In this document: positions 28,043 to 34,605 of the stretch, in pieces | How positions within the stretch are numbered: position 1 is the stretch's first letter | How the letters are laid out: every line of letters begins with the position of its first letter | From: Parvibaculaceae bacterium PLY_AMNH_Bact1 | Lineage (GTDB): Bacteria; Pseudomonadota; Alphaproteobacteria; Parvibaculales; Parvibaculaceae | NCBI GenBank assembly: GCA_032881465.1 | Contig: CP126168.1 | Coordinates: 3,287,501 to 3,351,500 of the forward strand | Reading direction: 5' to 3' | Length of the DNA: 64,000 bases | The notes under the pieces: model-generated | The model's database searches: none | What the model saw: only the letters and a program-made list of their open reading frames with translations | Told to the model about the DNA's origin: nothing | Made by a program: the position numbers and the translations under genes

Positions 28043-28528
28043 ATGCGGGTAGAGATAATTGCCGTGGGCCGAATGAAACCGGGCCCCGAGAAGAGCCTTT
28101 TCGACAATCTCGCAAAACGGTTTGACGGCCAGGGCAAGGCGTTGAGCCTTGGACCGCTGTTGCTCACCGAAGTGGAAGAGAAGAAAAATCTCGGGCGCGC
28201 AGAGCTAGCCGCCCGCGAAGGTGAGAAGATCCTTCAGGCCTTGCCCAAGGGCGCGAAACTCATCGTCCTGGATGAGCGCGGCCGATCGTTGAAAAGCAAA
28301 GAATTTTCACAAAAGCTGAGTCTTTGGCGCGACGAAGGTGCACACGCCTGTGCATTCGTGATTGGCGGAGCGGGAGGCTTAAGCGACGAAGTCAGAAATC
28401 GCGCAGATTTCAAGCTCTCGTTCGGGTCTCAAACATGGCCACATATGATGGCGCGGGTTATGTTGTGCGAACAATTGTACCGAGCAGCAACAATTCTCGC
28501 AGGCCATCCCTACCACCGAGATGGGTAG
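28043..28528 (+). CDS. rlmH: 23S rRNA pseudouridine(1915) N3-methyltransferase
   Basis: A 161-residue SPOUT-class enzyme: N-terminal MRVEIIAVGRMKPGPEKSLFDN, AdoMet knot FVIGGAGGLSDEVRNRADFKLSFG, and C-terminal MARVMLCEQLYRAATILAGHPYHRDG. It methylates pseudouridine 1915 in helix 69 of assembled 70S ribosomes. It has the standard length and its conserved neighbour rsfS. A weak 7-bp hairpin (27995-28001 with 28026-28032) precedes the start. Confidence 0.95.
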   Translation: MRVEIIAVGRMKPGPEKSLFDNLAKRFDGQGKALSLGPLLLTEVEEKKNLGRAELAAREGEKILQALPKGAKLIVLDERGRSLKSKEFSQKLSLWRDEGAHACAFVIGGAGGLSDEVRNRADFKLSFGSQTWPHMMARVMLCEQLYRAATILAGHPYHRDG

Positions 28529-28668: not shown

Positions 28669-30252
28669 ATGGCACGCGCGACAAACACAGAACCCGTCGT
28701 ACTTGCCATTCTGGATGGGTGGGGAAACCGCGCGGACACCGACGGCAACGCGATCGCCAATGCCAAGACACCCATCTTTGATCGCCTGGCCGCACGGGGC
28801 ATGCGAACAATGCTGGCAGCAAGCGGGGAGGCCGTCGGCCTTGGTCCCGATCAGCCGGGCAATGTCGAAGCCGGACACCGTGCCATCGGCGCGGGCCGGA
28901 CAGAACAACAATTTGCCGTGCGCGTGAACGCCGCCTTTGCCGGTGACGGGCCCGAACCCATTGCAGATAATAGAGAGTTACAGGATCTCATCTTGAAAGC
29001 GCGCAGCGTGGGTGGCGCAATTCATCTTGTCGGATTGATTTCACCTGCAGGCGTTGAGGGCCATCAGTATCACTTGGCTGTGCTGGCAGCGCTCATGAGC
29101 CACGAAGGTGTCCAAGTCTGGATCCACGCGATTCTGGATGGTGAGGATGCAGGCGCACAAAGCGGTGCGGACTGCCTCGGCGAATTTCTGCATGACATTG
29201 AGGGGGCGGACAATGCGCAGCTCGCATCGGTCATGGGACGACGCTATGCCTTTGATCGGCTTCAACGCGAAGGACAAACAAGCCTCGCACTCAAGGCAAT
29301 CGCAGATGCAGGCGCCAGCTCAATTGACTACGCGGTCCCCTATGTCGCGGAGTGCTATGAAAAAGGCCTTTGTGACGCAGACATTCCACCTGCCATTCTG
29401 ACTGGCTATGGAGGCCTGCGTCAGGACGATGCCCTGTTGCTCGCGCTTTTGCGGGCGGATGGGGCCGCACCGTTGATGACGGCCTTGTCTGGAACAACCG
29501 AGGCATCAGCCGGTGCCGTTGCTCCGATAGAGCTGTCTGCGGTGTGCAGCCTCACGCCACTCGCCGATCCATTGCGCGACCATATACAAACTCTTTTCGA
29601 GGAGCCACGCCTGAACGGAACCTTGAGTGAAGCCCTGGCAACCGCCGGCAAAAGGCAACTCTATCTGTGCGATGAGGCATCTCCTTTTGCACTCGGCACC
29701 TATCAGCTGGGTGGCAGACCGGCTGCCTTTGAAGGCGAGAGCCACCTTGCTCTGCCAAGCCCCAAACGCCAGCAGTTTGAGAAAAAGCCAGAGCTTGCGG
29801 CACTTGATTTGGCAAATGAGGTCGTGAGTGCTGTGAAAGCAGGAAGTGCGGATGCGATCATCGTACACTTTCCAAATGTTGGCCTCGCCGCTCGCACCGG
29901 CGATCCGGCTTTGGTCAAAAAGGCAGCAGAGATCGTCGACAAGGCGCTCGGCAAAATCACAGCCATCCTGGAAAAGCGTGGCGGCACTCTGATGATCACA
30001 GCATCCCACGGCAACGCCGAAGACATGCGCGCCGACGATGCAGGAAAAGCCAATGCGCGTAACACCCGAGCATCCGTACCGCTCGTAATCGATGGACCGC
30101 CAGCCGCAATAGCAACCATTGCACTGAAGCCCGGCCGTCTTGAAGATGTAGCGCCCACCTTGCTGGCCCTCTTCAAGGCGCCACCGCCCCAGGAAATGAC
30201 GGGTATATCACTCCTGGTGTCCAATGAGGCAGAGGCCCATGAGGCCGTTTAA
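28669..30252 (+). CDS. GpmI-like (cofactor-independent phosphoglycerate mutase) pseudoenzyme
   Basis: A full-length 527-residue protein that aligns end to end with 2,3-bisphosphoglycerate-independent phosphoglycerate mutase (LAILDGWG, GPDQPGNVEAGHRAIGAGR, LPSPKRQQFEKKPEL, MTGISLLV). Asp16 is kept, but the catalytic Ser of GNSEVGH is Val66. The metal ligands of NPDMVGH are Gly405 and Arg409, the Asp of TADHGN is Ser446 (His447 kept), and the His of TAHTTN is Asn465. The substrate His of GGVHSH is Glu130, and the Lys of EKYxHV is Ser338. It cannot work as a normal mutase. The reading frame is intact and well translated (AGGAGAG site), so this is not a decayed gene. It overlaps envC by 14 bases. 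A structural or sensory role is inference. Confidence 0.85.
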   Translation: MARATNTEPVVLAILDGWGNRADTDGNAIANAKTPIFDRLAARGMRTMLAASGEAVGLGPDQPGNVEAGHRAIGAGRTEQQFAVRVNAAFAGDGPEPIADNRELQDLILKARSVGGAIHLVGLISPAGVEGHQYHLAVLAALMSHEGVQVWIHAILDGEDAGAQSGADCLGEFLHDIEGADNAQLASVMGRRYAFDRLQREGQTSLALKAIADAGASSIDYAVPYVAECYEKGLCDADIPPAILTGYGGLRQDDALLLALLRADGAAPLMTALSGTTEASAGAVAPIELSAVCSLTPLADPLRDHIQTLFEEPRLNGTLSEALATAGKRQLYLCDEASPFALGTYQLGGRPAAFEGESHLALPSPKRQQFEKKPELAALDLANEVVSAVKAGSADAIIVHFPNVGLAARTGDPALVKKAAEIVDKALGKITAILEKRGGTLMITASHGNAEDMRADDAGKANARNTRASVPLVIDGPPAAIATIALKPGRLEDVAPTLLALFKAPPPQEMTGISLLVSNEAEAHEAV

Positions 30253-31522
30253 CACAGCCTGCACCCTGACCAGCGCTGTGCTGGTAAGCACGGGCCTTTT
30301 TTTGGGCCCCCCGTCCTTAGCAAATGAGACCGACCCGACGCGCCTCCAGAAACTAGAAGGCGAAATCGAAGACCGGGTCGAGCGCCGCAAGCAATTAGAG
30401 GCAGAGGCAAACGCGCTTGCCGAAGAAGTACAAGAGATCAGACAACAGCTAATCGAGGCGGCTGCCAGGGTCCAGGCTCGCGAACGCGACGTAACGGACT
30501 CAGAAACCCGGCTCGCTGGTCTGGAAGCTGCTCAGGCGGTACTTCTTGCACAGCTGGAAACACGCCGAGCAGAGCTCACGGACACCCTCGCCGCCCTGCA
30601 ACGACTTGACCGAAACCCGCCACCAGCGCTCGCGGTGCGCCCGGACGATGCGGTGTCAGCGATGCGAAGCGCTCTTCTGCTCTCAACCATCGTGCCGAAG
30701 CTCGAGACAGACGCCCGAGAGATACGAGAGCGGCTGGAAGAGCTGGAGAAGGTAAAGTCAGATCTGATCGCCGAACAGGAGACCTTTGATACCGCCTCTC
30801 TCGATCTCACAGGAGAGCGGGAAACGCTGAACCAATTACTGAAGGCAAAAGTCACCGCTGAGGCTGCGGCCCGCGCATTGGCCGAAGAGGAAGCGGCAGC
30901 CCTTGCCACACTTTCTCGTGAGGCCAAAAGCCTCAAAGACCTGATCGCGCGCCTGGAGGCCCGGGCGGCAAGCAGAACGCCTGCCCCGCGCCCGACCTTT
31001 ACCGAACGCGGCGCATCACCGCAGACAGATCCCACACCAGCCGAGCGCCAGATCGCTGCAATCGCGCCTAATCTCGCACCAGGCCACCTATTTTCAGCTT
31101 CCAGAGGCCTCATTCGCCCTCCAGTTGAGGGAATTGCGCTCGGACGCTATGGAACGGATGACGGCGTGGGCGGAACGGTACAAGGGTTAACGCTTGAGAC
31201 CCGGCCTGAAGCCCCCGTAACAGCCCCATTTGACGGCAGAATTGCTTTTGCAGGACCCTTTCGCCGCTATGGGCAACTCTTGATCCTGGAGGTCGGCGAG
31301 GGGTACCATCTGCTCCTTGCGGGCATGACCCGAATCGACGGAATTGTTGGCCAAAACGTGCTGGCAGGAGAACCCGTCGGCGCGATGGGGCTGACCCGCT
31401 CTGAAGAGTCTTCGAACGCTGGTAGCGACAAGCCAGCGCTCTATATCGAGTTGAGGCGAAACGGATCCCCCGTCGACCCAAGACCCTGGTTTGTCGCAAG
31501 TGATAGGAAGGCCCGAGGCTGA
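30239..31522 (+). CDS. envC: EnvC-like murein hydrolase activator (degenerate M23)
   Basis: About 427 residues from ATG 30239, which gives a clean signal peptide (TLTSAVLVSTGLFLGPPSLA); ATG 30224 is also in frame. A long coiled coil (about 30-245, rich in E, R, L, A) is followed by a Pro-rich linker and a LytM/M23 fold (APVTAPFDGRIAFAGPFRRYGQLLILE... ALYIELRRNGSPVDPRPWF). The zinc motif HxGxD is missing (GLTLE in its place), as in activator-type EnvC proteins that switch on amidases at the septum. It overlaps the GpmI-like gene before it and ctpA after it. Confidence 0.86.
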   Translation: MRPFNTACTLTSAVLVSTGLFLGPPSLANETDPTRLQKLEGEIEDRVERRKQLEAEANALAEEVQEIRQQLIEAAARVQARERDVTDSETRLAGLEAAQAVLLAQLETRRAELTDTLAALQRLDRNPPPALAVRPDDAVSAMRSALLLSTIVPKLETDAREIRERLEELEKVKSDLIAEQETFDTASLDLTGERETLNQLLKAKVTAEAAARALAEEEAAALATLSREAKSLKDLIARLEARAASRTPAPRPTFTERGASPQTDPTPAERQIAAIAPNLAPGHLFSASRGLIRPPVEGIALGRYGTDDGVGGTVQGLTLETRPEAPVTAPFDGRIAFAGPFRRYGQLLILEVGEGYHLLLAGMTRIDGIVGQNVLAGEPVGAMGLTRSEESSNAGSDKPALYIELRRNGSPVDPRPWFVASDRKARG

Positions 31523-32850
31523 TGAATAGGTCCATAATTGCAAGTTTTGCTATTGGCACGCTGGTAGCCGGCGTAACAGTCTTTGCGCTTCAACCACTGA
31601 CCAACCACTCTGCGGCCAATGCAGCCAATTCAGAGACTTATCGACAACTCAACCTGTTTGGCGATGTCTTTGAACGCGTTCGCGCTGACTATGTCGAACC
31701 AACAGAAGACTCAGAGCTGATCGACAACGCGATCAACGGAATGCTCCATTCGCTCGACCCGCACTCGAGCTACCTGAACCCGAAAAGCTTCCGCGACATG
31801 CAAGTACAGACCCGCGGCGAGTTTGGCGGCCTGGGCATTGAAGTCACCATGGAGAACGGCCTGATCAAAGTCGTAACCCCGATTGACGACACGCCGGCGC
31901 AAAAAGCGGGCCTGCTGCCAAACGATCTCATCACACATTTGGACGACACGCCGATCTTGGGGCTCACCCTTGGCGAGTCTGTTGAAAAAATGCGCGGACC
32001 TGTCGACACAACAATTTCACTCACTGTCCTGCGCGAAGGCGTGGACGAACCGTTTGATGTGAAAGTCACCCGCGACATCATCACCATTCGCTCCGTCCGC
32101 TTCGAGCGGGATGACGACATTGGGTATATCCGGATCACAAGCTTCAACGAGCAGACATCCACCGGGCTGGATGATGCTATCGAAGAATTGTCAGAGTTGA
32201 TCGGTGAAGACCGCCTGAAAGGCTATGTCCTTGATCTGCGGAACAATCCCGGTGGCCTGCTCGACCAGGCCATTGCTGTCTCTGATGCGTTCCTCGACAA
32301 AGGCGAAATCGTTTCAACGCGAGGACGCCGAACAGAAGAAACGCAGCGCTACAATGCCCGGGGTGGGGACAAGGTAGAGGGCAAGCCAGTTATTGTTCTG
32401 ATCAACGGCGGATCCGCCAGCGCGTCCGAGATCGTAGCCGGTGCTCTCCAGGACCATGAGCGCGCAACAGTTCTCGGCACACGCTCATTCGGCAAAGGCT
32501 CTGTCCAGACGATCATTCCTTTGGGCTCTGACGGCGCAATCCGACTAACAACGGCGCGCTATTTCACGCCGAGTGGTACATCCATTCAGGCCACCGGTAT
32601 TGAGCCTGACATTGAAGTACACCAGGAAGTGGACGATGAGCGCCAGCGCAGAATAACCGGTGAAGCAGCCTTGCCAGGACATCTGGAAGCAGAAAATGGC
32701 AAGGAAGAAGCTTCTGGCTCACCTTCCTACGTCCCATCAGACCGCGCTGACGACCTTCAGCTGCAATATGCCTTGGACCTTCTAAATGGCGTGCGGACCT
32801 ATGAAGTGAAAGCAAACACAGACGAACAGAGCGCAACGGTCGCTAACTAA
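31522..32850 (+). CDS. ctpA: Carboxy-terminal processing protease (S41A)
   Basis: A 442-residue periplasmic protease with an N-terminal membrane anchor/signal (residues 5-25) and a PDZ domain (about 95-175, GGLGIEVTMENGLIKVVTP). The S41 catalytic domain has NGGSASASE (295-303) carrying the serine and Lys325 in RSFGKGSVQT. It trims envelope proteins from their C-termini and often controls peptidoglycan hydrolases. Its start overlaps the envC stop (TGATG), so envC and ctpA are coupled, matching a shared role in cell-wall remodelling. Confidence 0.94.
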   Translation: MNRSIIASFAIGTLVAGVTVFALQPLTNHSAANAANSETYRQLNLFGDVFERVRADYVEPTEDSELIDNAINGMLHSLDPHSSYLNPKSFRDMQVQTRGEFGGLGIEVTMENGLIKVVTPIDDTPAQKAGLLPNDLITHLDDTPILGLTLGESVEKMRGPVDTTISLTVLREGVDEPFDVKVTRDIITIRSVRFERDDDIGYIRITSFNEQTSTGLDDAIEELSELIGEDRLKGYVLDLRNNPGGLLDQAIAVSDAFLDKGEIVSTRGRRTEETQRYNARGGDKVEGKPVIVLINGGSASASEIVAGALQDHERATVLGTRSFGKGSVQTIIPLGSDGAIRLTTARYFTPSGTSIQATGIEPDIEVHQEVDDERQRRITGEAALPGHLEAENGKEEASGSPSYVPSDRADDLQLQYALDLLNGVRTYEVKANTDEQSATVAN

Positions 32851-32971: not shown

Positions 32972-33412
32972 GTGCAGATACGCAACGCTGAAGACGATGA
33001 CATCAAGGACGTGATTTCGCTTTGGGAACATTGCGGATTGACACGCCCCTGGAACGATCCTCGCTCAGATATCGCATTAGCGCGACAAACGCCCACATCA
33101 CGGCTAATGATTGGCGTTGATGAGGACCGAATTGTGGCAACAGCCTTGGTCGGATGTGATGGGCACCGCGGATGGCTCTACTACATGGCGGTTGACCCCG
33201 ATCAGCAAGGGAAAGGGCTGGGTCGAAGAATGCTCCATGCGGCTGAAGAATTCGTCCAATCCCAGGGCGCTGCAAAGCTGCAATTGATGGTCCGAACGGA
33301 CAACACCCAAGCATCTGGCTTCTACCAAACATCAGGGTACCTAGCAGAAGACGCGATTGTCTTTGGCAAACGGTTCGACGGGAAGACATGGGCAGTGCGA
33401 GGGGCAGAGTAA
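32972..33412 (+). CDS. GNAT family N-acetyltransferase
   Basis: A 146-residue GNAT starting at GTG 32972 (MQIRNAEDDDIKDVISLWEHCGLTRPWNDP), which resembles the YpeA/RimI-like family. The acetyl-CoA loop is VDPDQQGKGLGRRML, followed by LMVRTDNTQASGFYQTSGY. The acceptor is unknown. It is coupled to the next gene by a TAATG overlap. Confidence 0.86.
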   Translation: MQIRNAEDDDIKDVISLWEHCGLTRPWNDPRSDIALARQTPTSRLMIGVDEDRIVATALVGCDGHRGWLYYMAVDPDQQGKGLGRRMLHAAEEFVQSQGAAKLQLMVRTDNTQASGFYQTSGYLAEDAIVFGKRFDGKTWAVRGAE

Positions 33413-34605
33413 TGGTAAGCAGTTCACCTGCAAGCGCTGAAAAACGTCGCCTATTGCCAAGTATGCAGGCAAGCAGGGTCAGCCCACTGGCAGTCGGCGC
33501 TTTCGCCGTCGCCCTGTCATACGGCGCCGTCATCCTTTGGCTCTGGGCAACGGGCAATCCGACCTATATTGGCCCGCAACAGGTCATTGAGCTAACCGCT
33601 GAACCCGCCATTCCCGCGCCAGACATCTTGCGATCCGGGACAGCCGATGACCCCATCACACCCGAACCCCTTGAAGATACGAGCGTATCTCTCCCACTGC
33701 CCCTTTCGCTGGAACCCAAAGTTCCAGAAACGCCGCAGCCTGAAACAGCTGCGGCACCTCAAAGTCCGCCGCCGCCAACGCCTACAATAAATGTAACAGC
33801 TCTACCTGCAGCTCCCTTACCCGGACTGATCACCAGCGGTCCCCATGGCCCTCTACCAGTCATTGGCGCTGCGGGACAGCGCTCATCAACTGCCTACGCC
33901 CGCCCCTCGGGCCTCACGGCGGCTAATGTGCGCCTGCCCCGCGTGGCGTTGGTTGTCGGTGGGCTAGGCATCTCCGAGACGGCGACACGAAACGCGATCG
34001 AGAAACTACCACCAGAAATTACCCTGTCTTTCGCCCCTTACGGACGTAACCTCCAAAACTGGATAGACCAGGCGCGTGCCGCAGGCCACGAAGTCCTGCT
34101 GGAACTCCCCATGGAGCCTTATGACTATCCAGCCAACGACCCTGGGCCCTATACCCTGCTCACATCGCTGAGTGCCGGTGACAATCTGGATCGCCTATCT
34201 TGGCTGATGAGCCGCTTTACGGGTTACGTCGGCGTGACATCCTATCAGGGCGCAAAATTTACCTCAGACAAAGCTGCCATGGAGCCCATTCTCGAGGCGC
34301 TTGAAAGTCGCGGCATCATGTATGTCGATCCGGGCACCAGCCGCAGAAGCACAGCTCCAGAGTTAGCTCAAGAGCTTGGGCTTCCATGGACCAAAGGCAA
34401 CCGCGCTGTCGACCCGACCCGCACCCCGCGCGCCATTGACGAAGCACTTGTTGCTCTTCAGCAGCAAGCCAGCCAGAACGGTGTTGTTGTCGGTCTCGGC
34501 ACCGCCTTCCCAGTGACCATTGAGCGCATCGCGAAATGGACAGAAAACCTTGGGCAAGACGACATTGTTCTGATACCCGTGAGCGCAACCGCCATAGACG
34601 GCTAG
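33412..34605 (+). CDS. Divergent polysaccharide deacetylase family protein (DUF610/YibQ-like)
   Basis: About 397 residues from ATG 33412 (overlapping the GNAT stop, with GAGGGG upstream). One transmembrane helix (about 23-45) is followed by a ~120-residue Pro/Glu-rich spacer. The deacetylase-like barrel runs from about 175: VALVVGGLGISETATRNAIEKLPPEITLSFAPYG, HEVLLELPMEPYDYP, and GVTSYQGAKFTSDKAAMEPILEALESRGIMYVDPG. It is probably periplasmic and acts on or near the cell wall. Its place after envC-ctpA is typical of alphaproteobacteria. The enzymatic activity of this family is uncertain. Confidence 0.86.
   Translation: MVSSSPASAEKRRLLPSMQASRVSPLAVGAFAVALSYGAVILWLWATGNPTYIGPQQVIELTAEPAIPAPDILRSGTADDPITPEPLEDTSVSLPLPLSLEPKVPETPQPETAAAPQSPPPPTPTINVTALPAAPLPGLITSGPHGPLPVIGAAGQRSSTAYARPSGLTAANVRLPRVALVVGGLGISETATRNAIEKLPPEITLSFAPYGRNLQNWIDQARAAGHEVLLELPMEPYDYPANDPGPYTLLTSLSAGDNLDRLSWLMSRFTGYVGVTSYQGAKFTSDKAAMEPILEALESRGIMYVDPGTSRRSTAPELAQELGLPWTKGNRAVDPTRTPRAIDEALVALQQQASQNGVVVGLGTAFPVTIERIAKWTENLGQDDIVLIPVSATAIDG

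Follow-up and report, generated by a model that had tools for sequence, protein, structure and literature searches.

A putative GpmI pseudoenzyme under purifying selection beside envC in an alphaproteobacterial family

We identified, within the 64,000-nucleotide stretch of DNA analysed here (the window), a gene whose product is, clearly at the sequence level, a full-length orthologue of the phosphoglycerate mutase GpmI (iPGM); judging from the residues replaced, it is highly likely to be catalytically inactive, and it is under strong purifying selection, as strong as that on the neighbouring genes. The reading that we favour, and consider fairly probable, is that this is an inactivated, vertically inherited GpmI that was dispensable with GpmA present and has been kept as a folded, cytosolic, non-catalytic binding protein. 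A clade-wide GpmI pseudoenzyme is previously unremarked within the literature searched: the open-licence part of it yielded no earlier report of a GpmI pseudoenzyme, or of GpmI acting with EnvC or CtpA. The initial annotation had described a 527-residue frame without interruption and had proposed that it encodes a pseudoenzyme of the alkaline-phosphatase superfamily kept by selection; the frame, its length and its position are correct, and the proposal is strongly supported by the loss of catalytic residues together with pairwise dN/dS values of 0.03-0.15. The gene and its neighbours in the window are:

28043-28528, + strand: rlmH, the upstream neighbour (Pfam PF02590)
28669-30252, + strand: pseudo-GpmI, 527 aa, two-domain iPGM fold without the catalytic centre (ORF, Pfam, TIGR01307, alignment, AF2, Foldseek)
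30224-31522 (start possibly 30239), + strand: envC-like LytM/M23 protein with a signal-peptide-like N-terminus, overlapping the end of pseudo-gpmI (PF01551)
31522-32850, + strand: ctpA, S41 protease with PDZ (PF03572, PF13180)
33388-34605, + strand: SddA/YibQ homologue (PF04748), also without deacetylase metal ligands (Pfam, alignment; ligands per PMC12440217)

Fold and active-site residues

The Pfam models Metalloenzyme and iPGM_N match the protein across its full length (both iPGM domains), and its closest solved structures are iPGMs (1o99, 1ejj). Its TIGR01307 score of 324 bits is slightly below the curated equivalog cut-off of 330.65, while the genuine alphaproteobacterial GpmIs listed score mostly ~640-700 bits; three related pseudoenzymes (L047, L048 and L049) lie at or just above the cut-off, so that automatic annotation would label them active GpmI, which makes the group a source of misannotation. 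From 44 aligned sequences, AF2 predicted a complete iPGM fold (mean pLDDT 89.6, pTM 0.86), and Foldseek matched this model to 1o98 with a TM of 0.88 over 520 columns. No export signal is evident, since the N-terminus is not signal-peptide-like. The protein is thus orthologous to the GpmI/iPGM family (TIGR01307, PDB 1EJJ/1O98) by sequence, predicted fold, domain order and operon position, but it is without the nucleophile or a complete metal site, its substrate site is mostly gone, and it cannot be filed as a mutase.

We scored 18 sites, numbered after the B. stearothermophilus iPGM (1EJJ), for which the roles of the active-site residues are established. The seven substitutions named in the initial annotation all hold in the alignment (S62 to V66, D403 to G405, H407 to R409, D444 to S446, H462 to N465, H123 to E130, and K336 to S338), and two further substrate ligands are lost (R153 to E159 and R264 to G265). 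Sites retained in the 527-residue protein are D12 (D16), N61, E63, H66, D154 (D160), R185 (R191), R191 (R197), R261 (R262) and H445 (H447). Four of the six metal ligands (D12, D403, H407, D444, H445, and H462) are therefore gone, leaving only D12 and H445; of the eight substrate ligands H123, R153, R264 and K336 are lost, and four remain in the genus of the window. The main positions are:

28714-28716, + strand: Asp16, equivalent to metal ligand D12; conserved in 30/30 scored members of the family, replaced by Gln in the sister order
28864-28866, + strand: Val66 for the catalytic Ser62; V/L/A/G/T/M/P across the family
29056-29058, + strand: Glu130 for His123 (substrate); from the alignment
29143-29145, + strand: Glu159 for Arg153 (substrate); from the alignment, absent from the first list
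29146-29148, + strand: Asp160, equivalent to D154; kept in 35/35 pseudoenzymes
29239-29241, + strand: Arg191, equivalent to R185; kept in 35/35 pseudoenzymes
29461-29463, + strand: Gly265 for Arg264 (substrate); from the alignment, absent from the first list
29680-29682, + strand: Ser338 for Lys336 (substrate); from the alignment
29881-29883, + strand: Gly405 for Asp403 (metal); from the alignment
29893-29895, + strand: Arg409 for His407 (metal); Arg/Lys in 28/31 family members, Arg in 4/4 of the sister order
30004-30006, + strand: Ser446 for Asp444 (metal); from the alignment
30061-30063, + strand: Asn465 for His462 (metal); from the alignment

Positions that are fully lost are enriched in active-site columns (8/15, vs 27/133 other equally conserved columns; Fisher p = 0.008). 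The replacements at the lost sites are variable across the family, as the seven residues found at position 62 illustrate, so these sites harbour no new, conserved catalytic set. We also observed that His407 has become Arg or Lys in 32 of the 35 pseudoenzymes, His being kept in L006, L007 and L018; the pattern suggests a repeated change from His to Arg, in which a positive charge perhaps replaces the metal.

Distribution, selection and history of the loss

Homologue matches were found in 33 of 40 genomes of the GTDB family of the window, the sole family returned for its order. The family alignment comprised 31 homologues from 30 genomes, to which four from a sister order were added (f121, one genus, four genomes). 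All 31 family homologues are without S62, R153, R264, K336, D403, D444 and H462, and all 31 keep D154 and R185; across both orders, S62, D403, D444, H462, K336 and R264 are absent from 35/35 sequences (the catalytic Ser62 from 31/31 and 4/4, respectively). By comparison, 23 genuine GpmIs from other alphaproteobacteria are intact at 18/18 sites. The f121 homologue is at the same locus, is ~30% identical and more divergent, and is predicted to fold over most of its length (pLDDT 79); it has also lost D12 but has R153, and some of its gapped positions (H66, H445) are alignment-dependent. Six other assemblies of the window's genus and 24 further family sequences share the loss, and its recurrence in 35 sequences rules out substitutions private to one assembly or due to sequencing error.

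Low TIGR01307 scores elsewhere in the class come mostly from contig-split genuine genes or unrelated phosphatases, and the order of genomes G159, G262 and G347 is the sole second pseudoenzyme group among the low scorers. A search of plasmids returned only ordinary GpmI-like matches, below 60% identity. Outside the class, an Oscillospiraceae MAG encodes a GpmI homologue (L045, 3001-4509) that keeps the catalytic Ser and carries D444S, H462G and D154T, possibly an independent partial loss in Bacillota.

Against G002, dN/dS is 0.051 for pseudo-gpmI, 0.052 for proA, 0.050 for proB, 0.046 for rlmH and 0.068 for envC; at larger distances dS is saturated and dN/dS is indicative only. No stop interrupts any of the 35 translated homologous stretches. 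The initial annotation had argued for selection from the open frame and its overlap with envC (29 bases for an envC start at 30224, 14 for the ATG at 30239); selection is borne out by dN/dS, but the overlap by itself shows none.

The order obgE-proB-proA-nadD-rsfS-rlmH-gpmI-envC-ctpA-sddA-rppH is found, whole or in part, around the pseudoenzymes of the family and the sister order, and likewise around most of the active alphaproteobacterial GpmIs examined, so that the gene was inherited in place and its position alone is no evidence of a division role. Of the 13 family regions examined, 12 have rlmH in this position; the remaining region (L081) comes from a split contig and covers the envC side alone. 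A recent or horizontal origin is ruled out, the gene being a syntenic orthologue. In the protein tree, a branch of 1.16 substitutions with support of 100/100 divides the genuine GpmIs from the pseudoenzymes, f121 itself being on a long branch. Seven neighbouring genes, put into a tree with a quick method, group f121 with the family (SH-aLRT 97). Alignment, synteny and trees are explained most simply by one inactivation before the split of family and sister order, followed by long retention, although two separate inactivations, in the family and in f121, are possible.

Two further observations concern the locus. One assembly (G028) contains two diverged copies of the whole operon on separate contigs (L083 and L084), each with a pseudo-GpmI, from either a duplication or mixed strains; and open antisense frames at the locus in L012 and L021 are spurious.

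GpmA as the apparent remaining mutase

A search for a second mutase in the genome of the window found no other GpmI and one GpmA above the equivalog cut-off, among eight histidine-phosphatase proteins. Of 37 family genomes, 35 have a GpmA above the cut-off and two, both incomplete assemblies, do not; a GpmA is present in 4/4 f121 genomes. Among 385 alphaproteobacterial genomes sampled, 269 have a genuine-type GpmI (classed as genuine by score alone), 86 have GpmA, and 2 have both, so that the two enzymes nearly exclude each other in this class; all eight pseudoenzyme genomes in this sample carry GpmA. GpmA thus seems to do the mutase chemistry in the pseudo-GpmI lineage: where it is present GpmI is normally absent, while in this lineage GpmI stayed as a dead protein.

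The enzyme pair is that of the non-homologous isofunctional replacement of iPGM by dPGM treated by Foster et al. (2010; PMC2964296), who count Parvibaculum lavamentivorans among the genomes with both. Unlike the case as given there, the iPGM of the Parvibaculum genus appears to be the degenerate protein described here; genome G015 has only the degenerate GpmI. Retention of a dead protein as the fate of a replaced iPGM was not found mentioned in the available text of that paper, and is a third fate in non-homologous enzyme replacement, beside loss or redundancy.

Possible roles of the retained protein

We propose that an active gpmI at the same ancestral place would have given rise to the present gene by vertical descent, and that with GpmA, an unrelated 2,3-BPG-dependent mutase, present, catalysis by GpmI would have been dispensable. 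The nucleophile and the metal and substrate ligands would then have been lost, most simply once, before the split of family and sister order. The protein, predicted to be folded and presumably cytosolic and non-catalytic, would have been retained under the purifying selection seen in the gene, unlike its loss elsewhere in the class. It would act by binding: the surface, the domain interface and perhaps the remaining phosphotransferase-domain cleft would hold a partner, and this binding role was probably already present in GpmI beside the enzymatic one. A GpmI that is dead yet selected is a natural separation-of-function mutant, which makes testable both the reason for the tight linkage of gpmI to envC and sddA and the question whether GpmI does anything besides glycolysis.

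The initial annotation had suggested a scaffold or regulator in the envC-ctpA operon, perhaps responding to 3-phosphoglycerate. The first part is possible, with action via division components on their cytosolic side or via GpmA; we slightly prefer a cytosolic link to the envC-sddA septation operon over a direct regulatory effect on GpmA. EnvC and CtpA are unlikely to be contacted directly, because each of them, unlike pseudo-GpmI, begins with a signal-peptide-like segment. The idea of a 3-phosphoglycerate sensor is weakened, because only D154 and R185 of the eight substrate contacts are universal in the family (six are not kept family-wide, even if four of the eight remain in the genus).

The gpmM-envC-sddA set is an old proteobacterial arrangement, which has been suggested to connect central metabolism with peptidoglycan hydrolysis (PMC12440217). 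The locus described here has the same gene set and order as the E. coli operon, but GpmI and, by its residues, the operon SddA are dead here, ctpA is inserted, and rlmH precedes. In the operon SddA (33388-34605), the Asp-Asp pair has become GG, the first His is a Glu and the second a Tyr. The metal ligands are missing in all aligned operon SddA copies, including those beside an active GpmI, with a few keeping a single Asp; the same loss is found in the Agrobacterium structure 2qv5. This loss is therefore wider than the pseudo-GpmI lineage and is probably older than, and independent of, that of GpmI. A second PF04748 gene in the genome of the window (G000:C1:1471789-1472421) retains all four ligands.

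Genus g2 (G007; also G011, incomplete) has lost the pseudo-GpmI gene, which is therefore dispensable there. In G007 (L125) rlmH is directly followed by envC, and pseudo-GpmI and the operon SddA are both gone, with envC, ctpA, rppH and an intact distal SddA paralogue kept; this joint loss, a single event, hints at a link between the two proteins and proves nothing. Tentatively, and as a lesser possibility, a second, non-enzymatic job of GpmI in the septal gpmM-envC-sddA operon might survive alone here, with the dead mutase in the cytosol and the dead deacetylase in the periplasm as binding parts of septum control, alongside the LytM protein of EnvC type. Metabolic-enzyme folds do take part in alphaproteobacterial cell-cycle and division control: in Caulobacter, CitA controls the cell cycle even when catalytically dead, and FtsZ is bound by KidO, a homologue of oxidoreductases (PMC7083601). 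However, both CitA and GdhZ have enzyme activity and KidO is able to bind NADH, and for pseudo-GpmI a division role is only possible.

The cleft of the phosphotransferase domain might instead have been put to a new use, making the protein a ligand binder or an enzyme of a novel type. Of 16 columns invariant over pseudoenzymes and genuine proteins, 10 are within residues 150-254 of that domain (V150, H153, D157, G158, D160, G190, R191, D196, G249, and D254), and new residues, including R251 and D253, are invariant in both pseudoenzyme groups. Of the columns that do not vary among active enzymes, about one third are also invariant in the pseudoenzymes, among them old substrate-pocket residues (D160 and R191 in the 527-residue numbering), so a ligand site may be retained. 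But most of the old substrate contacts (H123, R153, R191, R261, R264, and K336 in 1EJJ numbering) vary freely in the family, we see no new conserved set of metal ligands or nucleophile, and the retained residues could have a structural role; we consider this account unlikely.

Rather unlikely, in our view, is that pseudo-GpmI regulates or scaffolds GpmA and thereby tunes lower glycolysis. A GpmA-GpmI interaction in E. coli is listed from two studies (PMC8167557), and all pseudoenzyme genomes with adequate assemblies also carry GpmA. The GpmA here matches its model with positions 122-145 skipped, and is thus of the short type without the 25-residue oligomerisation segment, a type described in PMC2964296. 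Yet g2 has the same GpmA and no pseudoenzyme, and the co-occurrence is expected anyway, because GpmA must supply the activity.

The overlap with envC in the window's genus and the loss of the gene in g2 could also point to a relic, either decaying or with its frame kept just for transcription or translational coupling to envC. This is very improbable: dN/dS is ~0.05 with no stops over order-level divergence, pseudo-gpmI and envC do not overlap in other genera, and coupling requires no conserved protein sequence. It is scarcely credible that the protein continues to act as a phosphoglycerate mutase by drawing the needed residues from elsewhere. The overall fold is kept, and three family members score high enough for annotation as GpmI, but the nucleophile and four of six metal ligands are gone here, metal ligands are lost in every homologue, the replacements are not conserved, and GpmA is present.

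A separate arrangement was seen at L129 (4029-9425; G130), a tandem of two GpmI homologues, the second of which has a signal-peptide-like N-terminus and is possibly exported; two ORFs with similar signal-like N-termini follow the tandem, and one of them is envC-like.
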